From Agmasoma carcini (nom. nud.) (taxonomy: Eukaryota; Microsporidia; Thelohaniidae), in NCBI GenBank assembly GCA_029232285.1, contig JAOXFI010000034.1, forward strand, positions 1 to 35,944: a stretch of 35,944 nucleotides of DNA, read 5' to 3'. The stretch's first letter is position 1; every line of letters begins with the position of its first letter. Position numbers and translations under genes: made by a program. Below the pieces are notes generated by a model. That model made no database searches. It saw only the letters and a program-made list of their open reading frames with translations, and was not told the origin of the DNA. This document shows positions 1 through 33,652 of this stretch, in pieces.

Positions 1-385
1 AATTCTTTATTTTTGATATTGAATTTTTATTTTTGATATACATATTTTTTTTTTTTATATACATATTTTTATTTTTGATATACATATTTTTATTTTTGAT
101 ATAAATGTTTTATTTTTGATATTGATATTTAATTTTTGATATAAATAATTTTATTTTTGATATAAATGTTTTATTTTTGATATAAATGTTTTATTTTTGA
201 TATACATATTTTTATTTTTGATATAAATGTTTTATTTTTGATATAAATGTTTTATTTTTGATATACATATTTTATTTTTGATATACATATTTTTATTTTT
301 AATTTTGAATTTTTTAATTTTTATTTTTGATATTTATTTTTGATATTTAATTTTTGATATTAATATTTTTATTTTTGATATTGAA
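1..385. repeat. TTTTTGATAT-based satellite
   Basis: A run of imperfect tandem units built on TTTTTGATAT followed by a short variable spacer such as AAATGTTTTA or ACATATTTTTA, about 18-21 bases per unit. It fills the first 385 bases and runs off the left edge, so its full length is unknown. No open frame or gene is visible. It directly abuts transposon relics, which fits a heterochromatic or subtelomeric position, but that is inference. Confidence 0.85.
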
Positions 386-489
386 TCTAAGAAAATGTTA
401 TATTTTACACACTGGAGAAAGAATACTGTTACAATTATAAATATATATTACGAATTTTATAAATATGATCCCTGGAAAAAATCTTAATT

Positions 490-2500: not shown

Positions 2501-3478
2501 CTAATTATACTTTGTTCTATCAAAATATTCAGATAATTTCAACTGTTTTAGCTCTATTTTACGACCAAGTGACACAATAACTTGATCATCAACAATAATA
2601 AAATCTTCACAATTTTCATATCCAGAATTTTCTATAAATGGGGTGTTTTCATTATTTAACTCATTTAAGTCAAAATATGAAAAAAATCCACTAGGGCTAA
2701 GACTTATAAAAATATGTCCTTTAACATCAAAAACAATACTTTTACTGTACAAATTGATAGATCCTATAAAAATAGGTTCATCTGTACCCATTCCCTTGAA
2801 CTCTCTGCCATATACTCCACTTAGATCAAGATTATTGTAAATCACTGATACATTGTTGTTACATAGAGAAATTATAAAATCACCATAATATTTAATTTTT
2901 GTAATAACAGTTTGGTGTATATTAAGGAAGGAATGTGTTGGTTTTGATATTAGCTTATACTCTTTCAAAGGATATTCTATTTTCCACTGCATTATTGAAC
3001 AATCAACACCCGTGCTAACCAAATATTCACCCGTGTGATGTATATCAATACTTGTTACGCTGTCTTTATGTCCAAACATGCCACCCATTGTTAAAACACA
3101 CTCAAAGGTATTGACATCCCATGCTCTAATTGTTCTATCTTCGCTGCATGTAAAGCAATAATTTGAATATACTTTTAAATCAAAAATAGCGCCAGTGTGT
3201 CCTTTGCAATATGATTCTACAACGCCTGTTTCTAAATTTAAAAATTTAAGTATGGCGCACTCTCCTGCCAAGATCAAATAATGTTTATTGGAAATGTCTA
3301 TGAAATCACAACAAATGAATTTTTCTTTTGGATTTGAATCTAAATGATGTTGTAATATTTCCATATTTTTATTAAATAATATGCAAGTTTTGTATCCAAT
3401 GGCTGTAAAGATGTTTAAATTTGAATGAGCCTTTAATTTTTCTATTTTTGCATTTTTAAGTACCAGCTCGTTTGACAT
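2501..3478 (-). CDS. EED/ESC-like WD40 protein (PRC2 subunit family)
   Basis: A 325-aa WD40 propeller. EED/ESC is the core scaffold of Polycomb repressive complex 2, which methylates histone H3 Lys27 with a SET-domain enzyme. By eye the similarity is specific to EED rather than generic WD40. Residues 51-75 (KEKFICCDF...LILAG) fit the strand before the second blade. GHTGAIFDLKV (93-103) and GGMFGHKDSV (132-141) copy EED's GHGNAINELKF and GGVEGHRDEV. HQTVITKIKYYGDFIIS (188-204) fits HRNYVDCVRWLGDLILS. Family members are usually 360-450 aa, so this one is compact. The aromatic cage that reads trimethyl-lysine seems lost: Ile55 stands at the Tyr148 position, and Ile236/Phe237 stand near Trp364/Tyr365. 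The start is supported by an AAATTT box 13 bases upstream. No methyltransferase partner lies in this window. The alternative is another WD40 family with convergent loops. Confidence 0.72.
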   Translation of the reverse strand: MSNELVLKNAKIEKLKAHSNLNIFTAIGYKTCILFNKNMEILQHHLDSNPKEKFICCDFIDISNKHYLILAGECAILKFLNLETGVVESYCKGHTGAIFDLKVYSNYCFTCSEDRTIRAWDVNTFECVLTMGGMFGHKDSVTSIDIHHTGEYLVSTGVDCSIMQWKIEYPLKEYKLISKPTHSFLNIHQTVITKIKYYGDFIISLCNNNVSVIYNNLDLSGVYGREFKGMGTDEPIFIGSINLYSKSIVFDVKGHIFISLSPSGFFSYFDLNELNNENTPFIENSGYENCEDFIIVDDQVIVSLGRKIELKQLKLSEYFDRTKYN

Positions 3479-4991: not shown

Positions 4992-7208
4992 TTAATTCTC
5001 TCCAAATATATCATCATGTGTTAGTTTAAAAGATAAAGGCTTAAATTCAACACCACCACCACGATAGAACTTTGAGAAAAATTCTATCCAATTTAATCTA
5101 AGCGCATGCAAACACGAACTTAACCCTTCTAATCCAATCAGTAAAAACATGGTAGAAACTAAATAAATAGGTAAACACACAATCGACACTATCCAACTCT
5201 TATTTCCTATCGTAAACTGATGAAGCACTGAAGTCAGCTGAACATGTGCTAAACTCACAGCCCATAACCTCAAATATGAACTAGTATTTGAAATCAACCC
5301 TAGTCCAAATTCTACAGTATGAATTCCAGAATTAATCCATAAATCTAAAACATCATCATCTCTAACCCTCCTCCTTGATAACAAAGTCAATGGTTTTGAA
5401 AAAAACATCCACGGTATACAAAATAAAATTATAGCTACTATAAATAGCTGCACGTACATCTGCCCGGGATACATTTGATCTTTTATATTAAAAGGATCAG
5501 TATACATACCTATCAAAGTATTAATAAGAGATGGTCTAAAACTAGTTACTGTCCATTTATATACAATAAGAAACACTAGATACCCCAAAAATAGCGTATA
5601 AGCTACAATCTGTGGTATAATAACACAGAAAAGTGTTAGCTTATCATGAAAATACACAGCGTTAATCACAGAAATACAACAACCTATTAACATATGAAAA
5701 AAACCAAGTATTATAGACATTTTCATTTTCAATGAATTTGTAAATGTTAGACTATTCGATGCCTCATGCCATATTGGATCAATACCAAACGGATAAGTCC
5801 TTTTACCTGATGAAAACAGTGAAATCGTAAGTGAAGCAAAGTCTGAATATAAAAATCCAAACCATATTGACGCAAAAGAGCAAGATAAGATGATAAATCT
5901 ACCATCCAATATTATTTGAAAGACACCACACTTATTATTAAGTGATTCATATTTATAAATCAAAGAAATTGATATTCCAAGTAATATTAAACCATGAAAT
6001 ACATCACCAAACATTGCACCAAACATAATAGGGAATGTAAATAACATGAATATAGCAGGATTGATTTCTCTATATTGAGGTATGCCAAATACATTTGTGA
6101 GATTTTGAAATCCTTCAGTAAAAGAATTTGTTGAAAAATGGGTTGGATAAGTTTCTTCTGTTTTTGTTTTTTCATAGAAAAACCGTCTTTTACCTAAAGA
6201 CTTGCACTTGCTTAGATCTTGTAGCTTATCCTCAAGGCAGAAGCCTTGTCCAACGTAAGAATCACCCTCCACCTGCTCTAAGTTGCTTATGGTCTCACAA
6301 ATCTTTCTTTCCTTATTAATGATATACTTCCAATTGACAAACTTTTTAGAAATGGTATTTTCTAATTCTTCAAATTCTAGGTCAAGATCATTTTTATGTT
6401 GAATTAATTGATCATAGACTTCCTTAAAGTCCATAATTGCTTCCTCTTCGGTGGTGTAGATGTGTGACTTATGATTGAAAATATTTTCATTATTTAAATT
6501 CAGAATATCAACAGAAGATTCCATGCCTCTGACTTCCTTCTTCTTTCCTATGTTTTGGTCCATCATCTCTAGTGGATTAAAATCATTGTTAACAGTCCCA
6601 TCACTTGTATATACTTTCTTCTCTTGGTTATAAAGTCTACCATCCATAGTTTCAAATACATTTCTAACCACTTTACGTGATGTCGTACCATAAACATAAA
6701 CAATAAACACACTTTTCTTACCATGGCTTAAGTTTTTATCAACAATATTGATGTAAATATTTCTCCTTAGCTTTTCCTTAAGAATTTTTTTAACAATAAA
6801 TTTCTTCTGTGTGTCAATGATTGCAGCTATCAATTCAGCATCACCAATATGCTTATGGAATTGATATATTTCTTTTCTCATTTTTATATTTTCAGTTTCA
6901 ATCCTAATTTTATCTTTAAGATTCTCTCTTTCCTTTTTAAATTTGATAACCTTCTCATAAACATCATTGAATTCCGTAACACAGCTTTTATAGTCAAGAT
7001 TATCTTCTATTTTATCATTTTCTATGATAAAGTGTCTCTGAAGATAAAAAAGCTGCTGCTCCAACTTTTTAACTTCCCCTGTTTCTTCTTTCTCATTTTT
7101 CTTAATAAAATGAATAATATCTTTATCAGCAATCTCTTTAATTGTTGTTTCGAGTCCTTCCTTGCTAAAATACATGTTTACGGGCGCAACCCTCTCACTT
7201 CGTAGCAT
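4992..7208 (-). CDS. VPH1: V-type H+-ATPase subunit a (Vph1/Stv1 family)
   Basis: The 738-aa membrane subunit a of the V-ATPase Vo sector, which forms the proton half-channels that acidify vacuolar and endosomal compartments. The start LRSERV copies the family's FRSExM opening, which fixes the start codon. Residues 1 to about 370 are the soluble arm, with charged helical segments around 60-110. Residues about 380-738 carry around eight membrane segments. YLRLWAVSLAHVQL (645-658) contains the essential arginine (Arg647, equivalent to yeast Vph1 Arg735), and LRLNW holds the second conserved arginine (Arg704). The end FYRGGGVEFKPLSF is also typical. Yeast Vph1 is 840 aa, and most of the shortening is in the arm. 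LSM2 lies 82 bases upstream. Unlike most neighbours it has no AAATTT box next to its start. Confidence 0.97.
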   Translation of the reverse strand: MLRSERVAPVNMYFSKEGLETTIKEIADKDIIHFIKKNEKEETGEVKKLEQQLFYLQRHFIIENDKIEDNLDYKSCVTEFNDVYEKVIKFKKERENLKDKIRIETENIKMRKEIYQFHKHIGDAELIAAIIDTQKKFIVKKILKEKLRRNIYINIVDKNLSHGKKSVFIVYVYGTTSRKVVRNVFETMDGRLYNQEKKVYTSDGTVNNDFNPLEMMDQNIGKKKEVRGMESSVDILNLNNENIFNHKSHIYTTEEEAIMDFKEVYDQLIQHKNDLDLEFEELENTISKKFVNWKYIINKERKICETISNLEQVEGDSYVGQGFCLEDKLQDLSKCKSLGKRRFFYEKTKTEETYPTHFSTNSFTEGFQNLTNVFGIPQYREINPAIFMLFTFPIMFGAMFGDVFHGLILLGISISLIYKYESLNNKCGVFQIILDGRFIILSCSFASIWFGFLYSDFASLTISLFSSGKRTYPFGIDPIWHEASNSLTFTNSLKMKMSIILGFFHMLIGCCISVINAVYFHDKLTLFCVIIPQIVAYTLFLGYLVFLIVYKWTVTSFRPSLINTLIGMYTDPFNIKDQMYPGQMYVQLFIVAIILFCIPWMFFSKPLTLLSRRRVRDDDVLDLWINSGIHTVEFGLGLISNTSSYLRLWAVSLAHVQLTSVLHQFTIGNKSWIVSIVCLPIYLVSTMFLLIGLEGLSSCLHALRLNWIEFFSKFYRGGGVEFKPLSFKLTHDDIFGEN

Positions 7209-7290: not shown

Positions 7291-7560
7291 TTATTTTTCC
7301 AAACTAAACTTCAATCGTGTTGCGTCTGTTAACCAATCATCATGGGCATCAGTTTTATACAGAATTTTCTTTACAGATGAACCTCTTATTGAAGTTTTTA
7401 CAAGATTTAAGAAATGTGGCTTTTCAATATAAACATCCTCCAACATTATGTTTAGATAACAATCAACACCCTTGAGAACACCACAAACTTCTATATCATT
7501 CTTTAACACCACCGAAATCTGCTGGTCAATCTTTGTTTTAAATAGTTCGTAAAATAACAT
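7291..7560 (-). CDS. LSM2: U6 snRNA-associated Sm-like protein LSm2
   Basis: An 89-aa Sm-fold protein. LSm2 belongs to the Lsm1-7 ring (mRNA decapping and decay, cytoplasm) and the Lsm2-8 ring (U6 snRNA 3' end, nucleus). The first 45 residues are close to LSm2 of animals and yeast: MLFYELFK opening, VVLKNDIEVCGVLKGVDCYL as the Sm1 motif and LNIMLEDV. The Sm2 motif is SIRGSSVKKI (57-66). The length (about 95 in other species) shows it is complete. An AAATTT box lies 6 bases upstream of the start. Its presence implies that splicing-type or decay rings remain in this organism. Confidence 0.96.
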   Translation of the reverse strand: MLFYELFKTKIDQQISVVLKNDIEVCGVLKGVDCYLNIMLEDVYIEKPHFLNLVKTSIRGSSVKKILYKTDAHDDWLTDATRLKFSLEK

Positions 7561-7824: not shown

Positions 7825-10800
7825 TTAATTTTTACCATCTTCAATTATATTTAAAAGAGACTTAAACAATTCAATTTTCATCATCTCATTTCTCTTCCCA
7901 AGCAAAATCAAATGGGTTTTGGCACGAGTAAGAGCAACATTAAGTCTCTCTTTACTCTCTAGAACAGAACACGAAACTACAGGATCAAAAACCACAATAA
8001 TTCTATCATCTTCACTTCCCTGAAATTTATCTATAGTAGTCACCCTATTAGATGTCAAAGACTTGATGTAACTTACTTGAGAATTAAAATAACAAAGAAT
8101 TGTAGCTTCATAATTATTAAAGAACTGAGACTCATTTATAGTTGTAGAGTCGATAAATTCACATTTAGACTCTTTATCAAAACCTTTAAGCCTATTCTTA
8201 TAGAATAGCACATTAGGCAGCCTCATGATCTCATTTCCCATTCTGTACTGATATTTCAATACATTCACCTTATCAGGGTTTGTTTTTAAGAGATACTCAA
8301 ATAAAGATAAGCTTAATGTTTTTGATGTCTTGGTTAGGGGCTTAAGCTGTAGATGATCACCAACCACACAGAATTTCTTAGATAAGCTTAGTGGAATCAA
8401 AGTCAGCAGAAGATGCTGCTGTGAACCCTCATCCACTACACAATAATCAAATTTTCGTTCTATAAACACAGGATCTGAGAAACAATAGCAAGTTCCTACC
8501 ACAAGCTGAATATTAGTAAACCTCTTCATCATCTCTTCATAGGTCTTATAGTTATTGCCTTCCTTTTTAGAATAGTAAATATTTATACTTTTAAGTTTCT
8601 TGATCAGGTTTTCAATTGCAAGATGTGTATAGCAAATCAAAAGAACTTTCTTACCATAGAAAAGTAAAATCCTTATTAAAAGTGCTATTAAAGTACTTTT
8701 ACCTGTCCCTGGCATACCATGTATAATTCTATAATCATCAGTATTTAAAGCTTTAAATAATGCTTCTTTTTGATCTTCATTCAAGTTAATAAATTCTGAT
8801 TTGAATTTATCTGGTATTTGTAGTGTATAAGAACATTTGTTTGTTTGTGGTGTGAAGTAGTCTATGTAGTCAGACGATGGTTCAGTGGTATTTTTGATAT
8901 CATTATTAATAAATATATCTTTCTTACACATATTAAATACAACTTCTTTGTCTTTATCGGATTTGACACGCTTATCAACATTAATATCAATTTCTCTTAG
9001 TTCTAAGTTTGACTTATTAACCTCCTGCCCTTTCTTTATAATCAATGGTTCTCCTAGCAATTCATCCTCTGAGGATATAGTTGGGTTGAAACTAGAATCA
9101 AGAGAACAAAAACTACTGTCGTCAACATTTGGTGACGTTTCAAATACATCGTCCAAAAATTTACATGATCTGATCGTTGTGCTACTTTTTTCTGTATCTA
9201 AAGGCTTAGCATCACCTTCATCAGTAAATATAACACTAACATCACTATCGTCTAGACTTATATGGTCTTGTTCTGACGAAAACATATCATCTACCACAAT
9301 CTCGTCAGATTCTTCAATGTTCTTCTTAGTAAATTGTTCATACTCAGTATCTAATGATGACTTAAAGTCAAATGTTACATTAAATTCTTCATCACAATAA
9401 AGAGGGACATCCATTCCAAGCTCTTCACCTGGCAAATTATAACTACCCATTCTATAAACAACATAGCGAGGATAAGCAACATAAAATAAAGAGTATCTCA
9501 TATACTTGTAAAAATTACTGTTGTTATCTATAACAACTAGTATATTCATATCACTATTCACAAATCCATCTCCAAGCAACTTTATTATGATATCATTCCC
9601 TCTTATTCTATCAACTCGTCCTTTACCTAAAAACTGTTTACTATCAGTGTAAATTCCAAGATACCCTCCTTCAAAAACTTCAATATTTGAACTGATTGTT
9701 ACAATATTCAACGATACTTCCATTATTGTTGCTTCAAAAAACCTTAAACTAACATTAGATTCATCATCTATGGCTTTGAATTGCCTCTTAAGAAAATGAT
9801 TATTATCAAGAGAATTGATCTTTTTAAAAATTGAGCATTCATTTGAACATTCACAATCTTTAAAATGGCCAGTCGCAACAACGTTTCTTTTGACAAGCAA
9901 AGCAACTATTTCTGAATGCTTAACATCAACTTTGTGAAGTTGTGAGCTTTTAAGATAATGTAAGTATGGTATAATATCAAAGTCTATATTTTCTTTAAGT
10001 AATAAATAATAAAGCAAGGCCTGTGCCCTGTGATCCATTCGATGTACAGATCCTGTCTTGATCTCAAAAAGATTTCTTGGGCTCATACAATCAATTTTAC
10101 CTTTCAAATTAAAGAGGGTAGAGAAAACAGGCTTTTCTACATCAGTAATACCACTTGTTTTCTTACAGAACTCAACAACATTTTTAATCTGTGCCTCACA
10201 CTCTATAATGAATTCCCTTAGTGATATTTTGGAGATGTACAGCAAAATAAGATTTTCTTTTGCCTGATTTCTTATTTCATTTTTCAAAAAATCTATAGAA
10301 TAATTTTCCATCAATAGAGCTTGCTCTATTACACTGTGTAATATCACACCAATTGCGATGAAAGGGTTTTGAAATTTAAAATCCAACTGTTCAATTTTTT
10401 TTTGAAATAAAGGAAAATTTGTACACTCAATGGATTTGCAGAATTGTGTTACTGACATGACATCATCATCAAAAAGTAGATAGTTATTATCATTTGACAC
10501 GTAATAATTGTGCTTTTCCTTTGTTTTTCCGTTTTCTGAATCACTTGAGAAAATTTCATCACTGTCAATGTCAAGGTTAACATCTGAACAACAAATACAG
10601 CTCGTTAGTTTTACCTTTTGGTGTGGACTGAATGATAAACTGGACCAGGCACCGCTGACATGTATGCTTCCTTCGCTAGAGTTAAGAACTACGTGATCTT
10701 CGTGCTCCTCAACACTGTCGATTGTAAAAGTTTTTGGAGTAATCCCAACTGATTCTCTATCATCACTTGAAACATATTCAGCTGTTTTAGTCCAGAAATT

Positions 10801-10890
10801 GTGGTCCGGAATGTCCAATTGTGGTGTTTTAGTACTATTTTTCGTCTCTGGCTTCTGTGTAGACATCCAGTCTATGTTTACTTCTTTCAT
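7825..10890 (-). CDS. DNA2: Dna2-type nuclease/helicase
   Basis: A 1021-aa protein. Dna2 trims long 5' flaps during Okazaki fragment maturation and resects double-strand breaks in the nucleus. The nuclease domain shows GKID (264-267) followed by EIK (276-278), the metal-binding D...ExK set, then HRAQALLYYLLL. Cysteines 151, 346, 348 and 352 probably form the family's iron-sulfur cluster, though the C-x-C-x3-C spacing looks tighter than usual. A long acidic, low-complexity linker (about 520-660) joins it to a superfamily 1 helicase: Walker A GMPGTGKST (725-733), Walker B VVDEGSQ (818-824), GDHLQLKPL, QYRMG (881-885), TIDKFQGSEDDRI and RLNVALTRA (982-990). I took the first ATG, at 10890: a frame extension two codons upstream would need TTG. 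A second ATG at 10866 is possible. The nearest AAATTT is 41 bases upstream. The length is close to human DNA2. Confidence 0.95.
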   Translation of the reverse strand: MKEVNIDWMSTQKPETKNSTKTPQLDIPDHNFWTKTAEYVSSDDRESVGITPKTFTIDSVEEHEDHVVLNSSEGSIHVSGAWSSLSFSPHQKVKLTSCICCSDVNLDIDSDEIFSSDSENGKTKEKHNYYVSNDNNYLLFDDDVMSVTQFCKSIECTNFPLFQKKIEQLDFKFQNPFIAIGVILHSVIEQALLMENYSIDFLKNEIRNQAKENLILLYISKISLREFIIECEAQIKNVVEFCKKTSGITDVEKPVFSTLFNLKGKIDCMSPRNLFEIKTGSVHRMDHRAQALLYYLLLKENIDFDIIPYLHYLKSSQLHKVDVKHSEIVALLVKRNVVATGHFKDCECSNECSIFKKINSLDNNHFLKRQFKAIDDESNVSLRFFEATIMEVSLNIVTISSNIEVFEGGYLGIYTDSKQFLGKGRVDRIRGNDIIIKLLGDGFVNSDMNILVVIDNNSNFYKYMRYSLFYVAYPRYVVYRMGSYNLPGEELGMDVPLYCDEEFNVTFDFKSSLDTEYEQFTKKNIEESDEIVVDDMFSSEQDHISLDDSDVSVIFTDEGDAKPLDTEKSSTTIRSCKFLDDVFETSPNVDDSSFCSLDSSFNPTISSEDELLGEPLIIKKGQEVNKSNLELREIDINVDKRVKSDKDKEVVFNMCKKDIFINNDIKNTTEPSSDYIDYFTPQTNKCSYTLQIPDKFKSEFINLNEDQKEALFKALNTDDYRIIHGMPGTGKSTLIALLIRILLFYGKKVLLICYTHLAIENLIKKLKSINIYYSKKEGNNYKTYEEMMKRFTNIQLVVGTCYCFSDPVFIERKFDYCVVDEGSQQHLLLTLIPLSLSKKFCVVGDHLQLKPLTKTSKTLSLSLFEYLLKTNPDKVNVLKYQYRMGNEIMRLPNVLFYKNRLKGFDKESKCEFIDSTTINESQFFNNYEATILCYFNSQVSYIKSLTSNRVTTIDKFQGSEDDRIIVVFDPVVSCSVLESKERLNVALTRAKTHLILLGKRNEMMKIELFKSLLNIIEDGKN

Positions 10891-11322
10891 CCACAAACTT
10901 GGATAAGCTTGAAAAAAGTTCTTATATTTGAAAATTTTAGAGTAAAACCCTTAGACTAGATTTATAAAAAGCTTTGAATATCCAATAATCTACGAATGGC
11001 TATGTATAAGACATTGGTCGTAATTCATATCAACCATTAGCGATAATCTAAAATATTTGATGCTGATGATGGTTAATACCAAAATGGGCATGTAAATATA
11101 TTTCATTAACCTAATAAAGTATTAATATCAATAAATTATTATATTTTTTTTCAATTTATAACAAACTAAAAAGGGAAATATCACACCATTTCTATTTAAG
11201 CTCCTAATGTATAAATTTCTGGTACACTTTACATTAATAATATATTTTTCTATAATTAAAAACTAAATGACTTCTTCTATTATAAAAAACTGAATCTTTC
11301 CTTAAAGTAAAAATATTTTTAT
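10891..11322. other. spacer between DNA2 and the UTP4-like gene
   Basis: 432 bases of AT-rich sequence with the DNA2 upstream region at its left side, including AAAATTTT at 10931-10938. No gene, repeat or structured RNA is visible. Confidence 0.5.
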
Positions 11323-26663: not shown

Positions 26664-27866
26664 TTATTCATTTTTGTTATCAAGATTCAAAGCACAAATC
26701 TTATCACCAATAAACTTGGCATCATCCATAAAATTCTTTACATCTTCATCAGTAACAAGCTTCCTCTTCTCTTGGTAATCCTTGATAAAGTTCTGAACAA
26801 CTTCAATACATTTGTTCTTCACTTCAGAAGTCAACATTTCTCCAGATTCATAACTTTTACGTATCCTTTCCAGGTCCTCATCATCATTATAGAAGAATTT
26901 AAGATATTGATATGCTACGTCAAGTTCTGTATTGGCACCAAGCTTTCTTTGTTCAGCCAATGTTTGCTTTCCACCCGAGAATGCATACTTTGTAATTTTC
27001 TTTTTGATTGTTTCCATATCATCATTCAAATAAATTGAAGAACTGGAATCTGAAGCGCTCATCTTACGGTTAGGACCTCTTAAATCGGGTAATAGACTCA
27101 CATAGATTGAGGCTGGTTTGCGCTCATTTAATTTTTCAGCTTTCTCTCTACACAACCTGAAGTATGGATCTTGATCAATAGCACATGGTATCAAACATCT
27201 TGCGTTAGGGTTTAAAAATTCAAAAGAGGTGGGGAAAGATGGAACAATTTGCTTAACTGGATAGGCAATTTGTCCTACCTTTGATTCTTCTGTGAACCCA
27301 AATACTTTGATGGCTTCATTCAAAGTAATCAATTTGCTAGTCTTACAAACATTAATGTTAAATGGTTCTTTGTGCTTTAAATTACCAAATATGTAAGTAA
27401 GTTTAGGGTCCAAACCAAATGCTATAATATCTTTGATGTTGCTATACATAAAGCCCCTAATAGTTTCTAAGCTATGATCTGACCACAAAAATTTTTCATC
27501 ATCTGTCATTTGAATAATCAGTTTACATTTGAACGTTTGTTGAAGGTACTTTGAAAGTACGAAGGGTATTGAATGACCTATATGCATACTAGAACTTGAT
27601 GGACCTCTTCCTGTATAGATATAGAAATCATCACCCTTTGAAATGGAATCCAATATCTTATCAAAGTCCCTGTGGGCAAATACGAGTTTTCTTGTAAAAA
27701 AGTGATGAGGCTTAGAATTAAGTATCTTATTCAATGTAGTTACATGTGAGTCTTCAACTTTCTTGCATCCAAATTGAGTGATCAAGTGGTCGTAGTTGAT
27801 GGTTTTCATTTCATTATCTTTACATTCAACTTTGACTTCCCATGGTGTAATCTTCTGCTCTGCCAT
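26664..27866 (-). CDS. WRS1: cytosolic tryptophanyl-tRNA synthetase
   Basis: A 400-aa class I aminoacyl-tRNA synthetase that charges tRNA-Trp in the cytoplasm. It opens with the eukaryotic/archaeal-type ITPWEV, then FFTRKLVFAHRDFDKIL. ATP-binding signatures are HIGH (95-98, in GPSSSSMHIGHSIPF) and KMSAS (268-272, a standard KMSKS variant). IQMTDDEKFLW, PCAIDQDPYFR (about 227-237) and GPNRKMSASD are diagnostic of TrpRS. Yeast Wrs1 is 432 aa, so this is a full catalytic and anticodon-binding enzyme with a minimal front end. I chose the ATG at 27866. An in-frame reading 59 codons longer exists, but its extra residues look random and an AAATTT box sits 18 bases before this ATG. Confidence 0.97.
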   Translation of the reverse strand: MAEQKITPWEVKVECKDNEMKTINYDHLITQFGCKKVEDSHVTTLNKILNSKPHHFFTRKLVFAHRDFDKILDSISKGDDFYIYTGRGPSSSSMHIGHSIPFVLSKYLQQTFKCKLIIQMTDDEKFLWSDHSLETIRGFMYSNIKDIIAFGLDPKLTYIFGNLKHKEPFNINVCKTSKLITLNEAIKVFGFTEESKVGQIAYPVKQIVPSFPTSFEFLNPNARCLIPCAIDQDPYFRLCREKAEKLNERKPASIYVSLLPDLRGPNRKMSASDSSSSIYLNDDMETIKKKITKYAFSGGKQTLAEQRKLGANTELDVAYQYLKFFYNDDEDLERIRKSYESGEMLTSEVKNKCIEVVQNFIKDYQEKRKLVTDEDVKNFMDDAKFIGDKICALNLDNKNE

Positions 27867-27884
27867 GAGAATTTTTTTTTTGAA

Positions 27885-27890
27885 AAATTT
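27885..27890 (-). promoter_or_regulatory. AAATTT start-proximal box, TrpRS gene
   Basis: Exact AAATTT 18 bases upstream of the ATG at 27866. It would lie inside the coding region if the longer frame were used, so it supports the short form. Confidence 0.5.
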
Positions 27891-28359
27891 ATAGGTAAAA
27901 AGGGGTATCTGATGATTAATGATTAGGTGCAAACGTTGGTAAATTTTGTATGTAAATATGACCTTTTTATCATTAAGAGAAATATGTTTTAGTATTATAT
28001 ACATTTGTAGTTTGTAAATATCATTATGTAGTTTAAAATACAATCACATATTTATATGTGAATATTACATGTATGTATCTCTATAATGCATATAATTTTA
28101 TGATTGATTTCTTTTCATGTACTAATTTTATTTTAAGCTATAATTTAGATTTTCGAAAATATTAGATTTTAACATATAAGGGTCACGCTATAGTAAAACC
28201 TATACCCACAATATTTAATATATTATGGATATTGCTGTAAAATTAGAATATAAAAATTAGAATTTAAACACTTTTGATTTGTGTTTTATTATTTTTTTTT
28301 GTATTATCAGCTATACTTAACATAAAGCTTTGCAAAGTGATAACACCGTTAATATAAAC

Positions 28360-33046: not shown

Positions 33047-33652
33047 ATGCTGCATTGTGATGATATCAGATTATGTAGAATGTGCTATTCACTTAACAAT
33101 CCTTATAACAATAAAAGTGATCTCATCTCACCTTGCAAGTGCAAAGGCTCGATCAAGTATGTTCACAACACCTGCTTAAAGACTTGGAGATTCAAAGGAA
33201 AGTTTATTCGGGAAATAAAAAAGTGTGAACAATGCTTTGGTATTTACAATGTTGATATTGAGAGGTCACTTCACTCATATATTATTCTGATATCTACCAT
33301 TCTTGTAATGGCTTTGAGCTATTTTTCACTCTCTTTAGCTTTAAATTCCTTTTATAGAGGAATGCTTTTATTCTCCAAGTCAAAACCAACCGATCTTGAG
33401 CTTGATTCTCTATATTATTTGAGCTGCTTAATGGTTCTATTTTTCCATAATTTATATACCAATCCAAAGCCATTCATGGTTTTTAATTATATATTTACGT
33501 TCTGGAGAATCGTGCAGTTTGATTTTACCTTTGATAAATTATTGTTTATGGGGTTTACCACATACTTTACACATAAATCATTTGTTGATCTTTATGATGC
33601 AGTTGATACAACGTATATATACCTGATGAATAGTACATCATCTTCTAAATAA
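33047..33652 (+). CDS. RING-CH (MARCH-type) membrane E3 ubiquitin ligase
   Basis: A 201-aa protein. A complete RING-CH zinc finger fills residues 10-63: Cys10-x2-Cys13, Cys30-x-Cys32, His40-x2-Cys43, Cys60-x2-Cys63, with the typical SPCKCKGSIKYVH core and CLKTW after the sixth ligand. This C4HC3 type defines MARCH/Doa10 ligases. Hydrophobic stretches follow at about 76-98, 122-138 and 145-175, so the finger faces the cytosol from a membrane, likely ER or endosomal. It is far shorter than Doa10 (over 1300 aa) and similar in build to small MARCH proteins. The ATG at 33047 is the last before Cys4; nearby upstream ATGs are out of frame. No AAATTT box is adjacent. It stands alone between spacers. 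Confidence 0.9.
   Translation: MLHCDDIRLCRMCYSLNNPYNNKSDLISPCKCKGSIKYVHNTCLKTWRFKGKFIREIKKCEQCFGIYNVDIERSLHSYIILISTILVMALSYFSLSLALNSFYRGMLLFSKSKPTDLELDSLYYLSCLMVLFFHNLYTNPKPFMVFNYIFTFWRIVQFDFTFDKLLFMGFTTYFTHKSFVDLYDAVDTTYIYLMNSTSSSK

Follow-up and report, generated by a model that had tools for sequence, protein, structure and literature searches.

We analysed a 35,944-nucleotide contig of the microsporidian Agmasoma carcini (nom. nud.) (JAOXFI010000034.1, in full length referred to as the window) and found that it encodes a 325-amino-acid WD40 protein that is very likely an orthologue of EED/ESC, a subunit of Polycomb repressive complex 2 (PRC2). The methyl-lysine cage of this protein appears degenerate, and a gene for E(z) is present in the same genome, apparently linked to it. 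We consider it probable that all three parts of this picture hold jointly, namely that the protein is an EED orthologue, that it belongs to a PRC2 with E(z), and that its cage has been lost. The reading that fits best, held with similar confidence, is of a reduced PRC2 that would write H3K27 methylation and could not read it through EED.

Identity of the EED-like Protein

The gene is an open reading frame of 325 codons, from an ATG start through the stop, with two EED-type segments outside the canonical repeats:

2501..3478, reverse strand: EED/ESC-like WD40 protein, 325 amino acids (open reading frame, reciprocal search, AlphaFold model, fold matches, profile comparison)
3062..3085, reverse strand: EED-type loop GGMFGHKD, residues 132-139, aligned with human GGVEGHRD
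2867..2920, reverse strand: EED-type segment IHQTVITKIKYYGDFIIS, residues 187-204, aligned with human IHRNYVDCVRWLGDLILS

In Pfam, the generic WD40 repeat model alone scored above its cut-off, and the named-family propeller models among the 25 matches listed fell below their own cut-offs. When human EED was searched against the genome, the gene at 2501-3478 was the top match with 59.3 bits, the next match reaching 27.9 bits. The AlphaFold model (pLDDT 85.5) retrieved EED exclusively at ranks 1-46 in Foldseek and in rows 1-41 in VIA-align, where the top non-EED chains scored just below the Chaetomium EED chains; human EED was the best fold match, with the propeller, the GGxxGHxD loop and the blade-5/6 segments all aligning. 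Profile-profile alignment (hhalign) with human EED extended over 258 columns (score 166), compared with 103 columns for WDR5 (112.5) and 102 columns for RBBP4 (66.7), the WDR5 and RBBP4 sequences used being taken as correct; the protein is thus more than a generic WD40 repeat protein.

The non-repeat loops resemble those of EED, as the sequence-only reading had claimed: the first reads MGGMFGHKDSVTSIDIH against human FGGVEGHRDEVLSADYD, and the second is the segment IHQTVITKIKYYGDFIIS listed above. The family profile placed the segments outside the canonical repeats in register with EED, though at E-values of 0.044-0.073, and hhalign did so with an E-value of 6.3e-6 and a probability of 85; residues 168-280 alone as a phmmer query gave 17 rows, with no EED among them. 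In the forward search with profile A1, EED was the only single-stretch match (22-280) among the 60 matches listed, and it ranked 19th on summed score. With the single sequence as query, LIS1 and FBXW7 stood above EED on summed repeat scores, and a LIS1-like or FBXW7-like identity on that basis was rejected.

Seven relatives with 29-40% identity were recovered, two of them from the microsporidia Nucleospora cyclopteri and Ecytonucleospora hepatopenaei. In the first search, four of the five matches were kept and P0005 was dropped (generic WD40, 37 bits). In the second, from the best 120 of 341 matches, P0003, P0004 and P0006-P0008 were kept (at least 266 bits) and the remaining matches, at most 141 bits, were dropped; P0001 and P0002 of the first search were not among the 120.

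Probable Degeneration of the Methyl-Lysine Cage

The cage of human EED is formed by F97, Y148, W364 and Y365. Y365, Y148 and F97 are named in PMC13068663. Two codons of the window mark the corresponding region:

3314..3316, reverse strand: Ile55 codon, corresponding to cage residue Y148 (sequence alignment)
2729..2731, reverse strand: codon of Phe250, the only aromatic residue near the W364/Y365 positions, invariant in all eight family members

Across the seven of eight members that cover the Y148 site, the residues are I, C, Q, N, I, Q, and Y. F97 would be expected within residues 2-17, since the fold alignment pairs residue 2 with human 85 and a shared histidine pairs residue 18 with human 104, and this interval of the 325-residue protein contains no aromatic residue and hence no F97 counterpart. 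W364 and Y365 would be expected between residues 245 and 256, where F250 is the sole aromatic; hhalign places it at W364 and a second alignment at F368. Thus, at most one of the four cage positions is aromatic, as judged from sequence alignment and not from a structural overlay, whereas the cage of human EED is complete.

Because an isoleucine occupies the Y148 position, residues 2-17 lack aromatics and only F250 is available at 245-256, we regard the cage as degenerate and, on this sequence evidence, as likely lost; the allosteric reading of H3K27me3 via EED would then be lost as well. We have accordingly classified the protein as an EED orthologue and not as a methyl-reading EED, as the aromatic set of the cage is not retained in the alignments. 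The earlier proposal that a complete cage is missing agrees with these results, in that the sequence has no room for all four aromatics. Neither of the outcomes that it gave as refuting was seen, the reciprocal search also favouring EED over other WD40 families. Of the residues it named, Ile55 indeed falls at Y148. Ile236/Phe237, however, belong to the strand before (IFIG, equivalent to human TILG), and the alignment with human EED rules them out as the W364/Y365 positions. The aromatic-free F97 position had gone unmentioned in that reading.

The Probable E(z) Partner and Its Apparent Linkage to EED

A search for SET domains in the 4.26-Mb assembly at E-values up to 10 found nothing besides two proteins, the E(z) homologue that the sequence-only reading had suggested looking for and a SET1/MLL-like methyltransferase, analysed as a 616-residue piece of a longer frame.

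C51:30249-32234, reverse strand: E(z), 661 amino acids, with MCSS-like, CXC and SET regions (SET search, profile, alignment)

A 579-residue part of the 661-residue E(z) open reading frame served as query in the EZH2-versus-MLL and relatives searches; its best match was EZH2 (97 bits), with MLL at 75. The first 19 rows obtained with family profile A3 (27 sequences) were EZH1, EZH2 and Chaetomium Ezh2 at 185-230 bits, above SUV39H2 (121 bits) and Clr4 (102 bits). The E(z) profiles included 26 of the 31 rows P0124-P0154 that were, in the author's judgement, of microsporidian type (P0132, P0139, P0142, P0150, and P0153 were omitted). Relatives labelled EZH2 at source include those of Pancytospora epiphaga, Enteropsectra breve, Encephalitozoon hellem, and Astathelohania contejeani. 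The 661-residue protein had no match to Pfam's own models of E(z) domains; the alignment contains an MCSS-like FCxxCxxFxCxxH motif, the cysteines of the CXC region, and a stretch that matches EZH2 near residues 95-135. The active-site residues Y641, F667, N688, H689, F724, and Y726 (EZH2 numbering) are retained, and a natural change at Y641 was ruled out, tyrosine being present in 62 of 62 alignment rows. The structure model of the Nucleospora E(z) (P0138; mean pLDDT 64.8, pTM 0.49) was too poor in its N-terminal part; with this model, Foldseek returned EZH1, EZH2 or Chaetomium Ezh2 at ranks 1-31.

E(z) and EED are apparently linked, as indicated by three of four informative relatives and by a contig-end overlap in the present assembly. 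Taking equal contig size as one shared contig, EED and E(z) relatives occur together in Nucleospora cyclopteri (44,457 bases), Ecytonucleospora hepatopenaei (84,168 bases), and a third source (25,696 bases). These are three of the four EED relatives (of seven) found on contigs longer than 19 kb; the fourth, P0004 (19,324 bases), had no E(z) match of equal contig size, and the remaining three lie on pieces of about 2 kb that are uninformative for linkage. In A. carcini, E(z) lies on contig C51 and the window is contig C56, whose left end carries a sequence shared with C51:

1..412, no strand: AT-rich repeat array with a unique 30-base tail (383-412), common to the right end of C51

Window positions 363-412 match the final 50 bases of C51 exactly, and the 30-base tail occurs at only two sites in the genome at up to two mismatches, one on each of these contig ends. 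Because the shared AT-rich repeat is followed by 50 exact bases at the ends, the two contigs are probably chromosomal neighbours split by an assembly break, although a duplicated element at both ends may account for the overlap instead. Across the join, E(z) and EED would be on the same strand and about 11 kb apart (8.9 kb in C51 and 2.1 kb in the window). A 196-amino-acid open reading frame situated between E(z) and the window (C51:38233-38823, reverse strand) matches the adenylate/guanylate cyclase catalytic domain (40.8 bits, above the Pfam cut-off), perhaps unexpected in such a reduced genome.

Other PRC2 and Chromatin Components

A Su(z)12 homologue, also sought following the earlier note, was not found: the VEFS box had no match in the genome at E ≤ 10, nor did the search match in any of the control genomes. 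As Bnd1 of Cryptococcus is held to be a diverged SUZ12 (PMC10638273), the lack of a VEFS match says little about whether Su(z)12 is absent. CAF1C_H4-bd likewise had no match at E ≤ 0.001, in this genome or in any control genome. An RBBP4 candidate on C13 was the best match of human RBBP4 in the genome (45.7 versus 27.1 bits), the query sequence being taken as correct. JmjC and BAH domains were not found in the genome, and each of these controls matched in one genome, below the cut-off. The following chromatin genes were located:

C30:30098-30445: H3 gene near an H4 gene; K9 context degenerate (HSQKV), K27 context TARKS kept
C30:103395-103760: second H3 gene; K9 and K27 contexts both kept
C33:51812-51958: HP1-like protein, 137 amino acids, with chromo and chromoshadow domains (Pfam)

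The K27 contexts of the two H3 genes are SARKT and TARKS. The HP1-like protein is present even though the SET search found only E(z) and the SET1-like protein; a second chromo locus, on C25, gave two chromo matches.

Comparison with Known Systems

E(z)-type genes have already been reported in Microsporidia (PMC9692433), and a "Clr4/EZH2" together with RBBP4 has been listed for Encephalitozoon, where H3K9 methylation is argued and EED is not mentioned in the available text (PMC10158259). Polycomb machinery in this group is therefore less unexpected than the sequence-only reading had supposed; our searches of the open-access literature gave no prior report of a microsporidian EED, and the string "microspor" is absent from the main text of PMC9018016, PMC10638273, PMC8788455, and PMC7348808. 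The Encephalitozoon SET proteins P0144, P0145, and P0148 are related to the E(z) described here; the Encephalitozoon "Clr4/EZH2" was assigned to an H3K9 pathway (PMC10158259), whereas our family profile groups with EZH2. The EED partner is proposed here for microsporidia other than Encephalitozoon.

ESC was found to accompany E(z) more often than canonical Su(z)12 does (PMC9018016). The PRC2 of Cryptococcus neoformans (Ezh2, Eed1, Bnd1, Msl1, and Ccc1) resembles the present system in having E(z) and EED and in the presence of a chromodomain protein in the genome (PMC8788455). The Cryptococcus complex lacks Su(z)12, and its H3K27me3 is recognised by Ccc1, a chromodomain subunit (PMC8788455; PMC7348808); in the present genome Su(z)12 was not found, in a search without any control match. 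By contrast, a Ccc1- or Bnd1-like subunit is known from Cryptococcus and not from the present genome, and the HP1-like protein found here carries a chromoshadow domain, with no link to PRC2 known for it. Fungal EED proteins are described as having a large insertion domain (PMC7348808), for which the 325-residue protein is too short, and the aligned chain of Chaetomium thermophilum EED is also longer (453-481 residues).

Alternative Explanations

It is rather unlikely, in our view, that the E(z) of this PRC2-like pair methylates H3K9 besides or instead of H3K27, with EED serving HP1-type heterochromatin. E(z) and the SET1-like protein are the only SET proteins found, an HP1-like chromo/chromoshadow protein is encoded in the genome, and ciliate E(z) enzymes that act on both H3K9 and H3K27 are known. 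H3K9 methylation has also been proposed for the Encephalitozoon protein (PMC10158259). However, the family profile scores EZH2 far above SUV39H2 and Clr4, and the H4-proximal copy of H3 is degenerate at K9 and intact at K27, while the other copy keeps both. Somewhat less probable still is a rearranged, working methyl-lysine pocket built from F250 and other residues, in which reading would be altered and not lost. The invariance of F250, its placement at W364 by hhalign, and the tyrosine at position 148 in one of seven members are compatible with such a pocket, but the aromatic-free residues 2-17, the isoleucine at Y148, the lack of a second aromatic at 245-256, and the placement of F250 at F368 in the second alignment argue against it.

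That the protein is a propeller derived from EED with a new role outside PRC2, or a WD40 protein of another kind that only resembles EED, seems very improbable. Summed repeat scores favouring LIS1 and FBXW7, and the failure to find Su(z)12 (with no control match either), could be read in this way; the reciprocal search, the colinear profile alignment, and the fold comparison nevertheless favour EED, and the genome has an E(z) gene in apparent linkage. Between the two possibilities raised from the sequence alone, a stripped PRC2 or a re-used scaffold, the retention and apparent linkage of E(z) make a working stripped PRC2 the likelier, and we hold it highly probable that the microsporidian EED belongs to a PRC2 with E(z).

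Other Features of the Window and Assembly

Other genes identified in the window include the following:

4992-7208: V-ATPase subunit a
7291-7560: LSM protein
7825-10896, reverse strand: Dna2-like nuclease-helicase, 1,023 amino acids
25455-26618: proteasomal ATPase
26664-28043: class I tRNA synthetase
33047-33652: RINGv protein

Microsporidian SSU rRNA had no match in the 4.26-Mb assembly, with matches in 9 of 14 control genomes; within this analysis, the microsporidian origin is therefore drawn only from the closest relatives of the proteins.

A Proposed Reduced PRC2 in Microsporidia

In the reduced PRC2 that we favour, EED would be the structural scaffold that holds and activates E(z), the two together are predicted to methylate H3K27, and EED would not read the resulting methylation. 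Its spread or upkeep would need another factor, the likeliest being a chromodomain protein, for instance the HP1-like one encoded in this genome, which we propose as a reader by analogy with Ccc1, the H3K27me3-recognising subunit of Cryptococcus PRC2. More tentatively, and with the odds somewhat against so complete a scheme, these microsporidia might possess a minimal write-only PRC2 consisting of linked E(z) and EED, with a cage-less scaffold EED, no Su(z)12 and an HP1-like reader, in which E(z) would be the sole histone methyltransferase with a repressive role and what has been proposed as H3K9/Clr4 heterochromatin in Encephalitozoon would be E(z) chromatin.

Reading of H3K27me3 by EED is central to the accepted view of how PRC2 silencing spreads and is inherited. 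If our reading is true, a conserved natural EED that retained E(z) but not the cage would separate the scaffold role from the reader role in a 4.3-Mb eukaryotic genome. EED would also be the likely partner of the microsporidian E(z), elsewhere read as a component of an H3K9 pathway, and a prediction for gene silencing in these parasites follows, namely that H3K27 methylation would be present in their spores.
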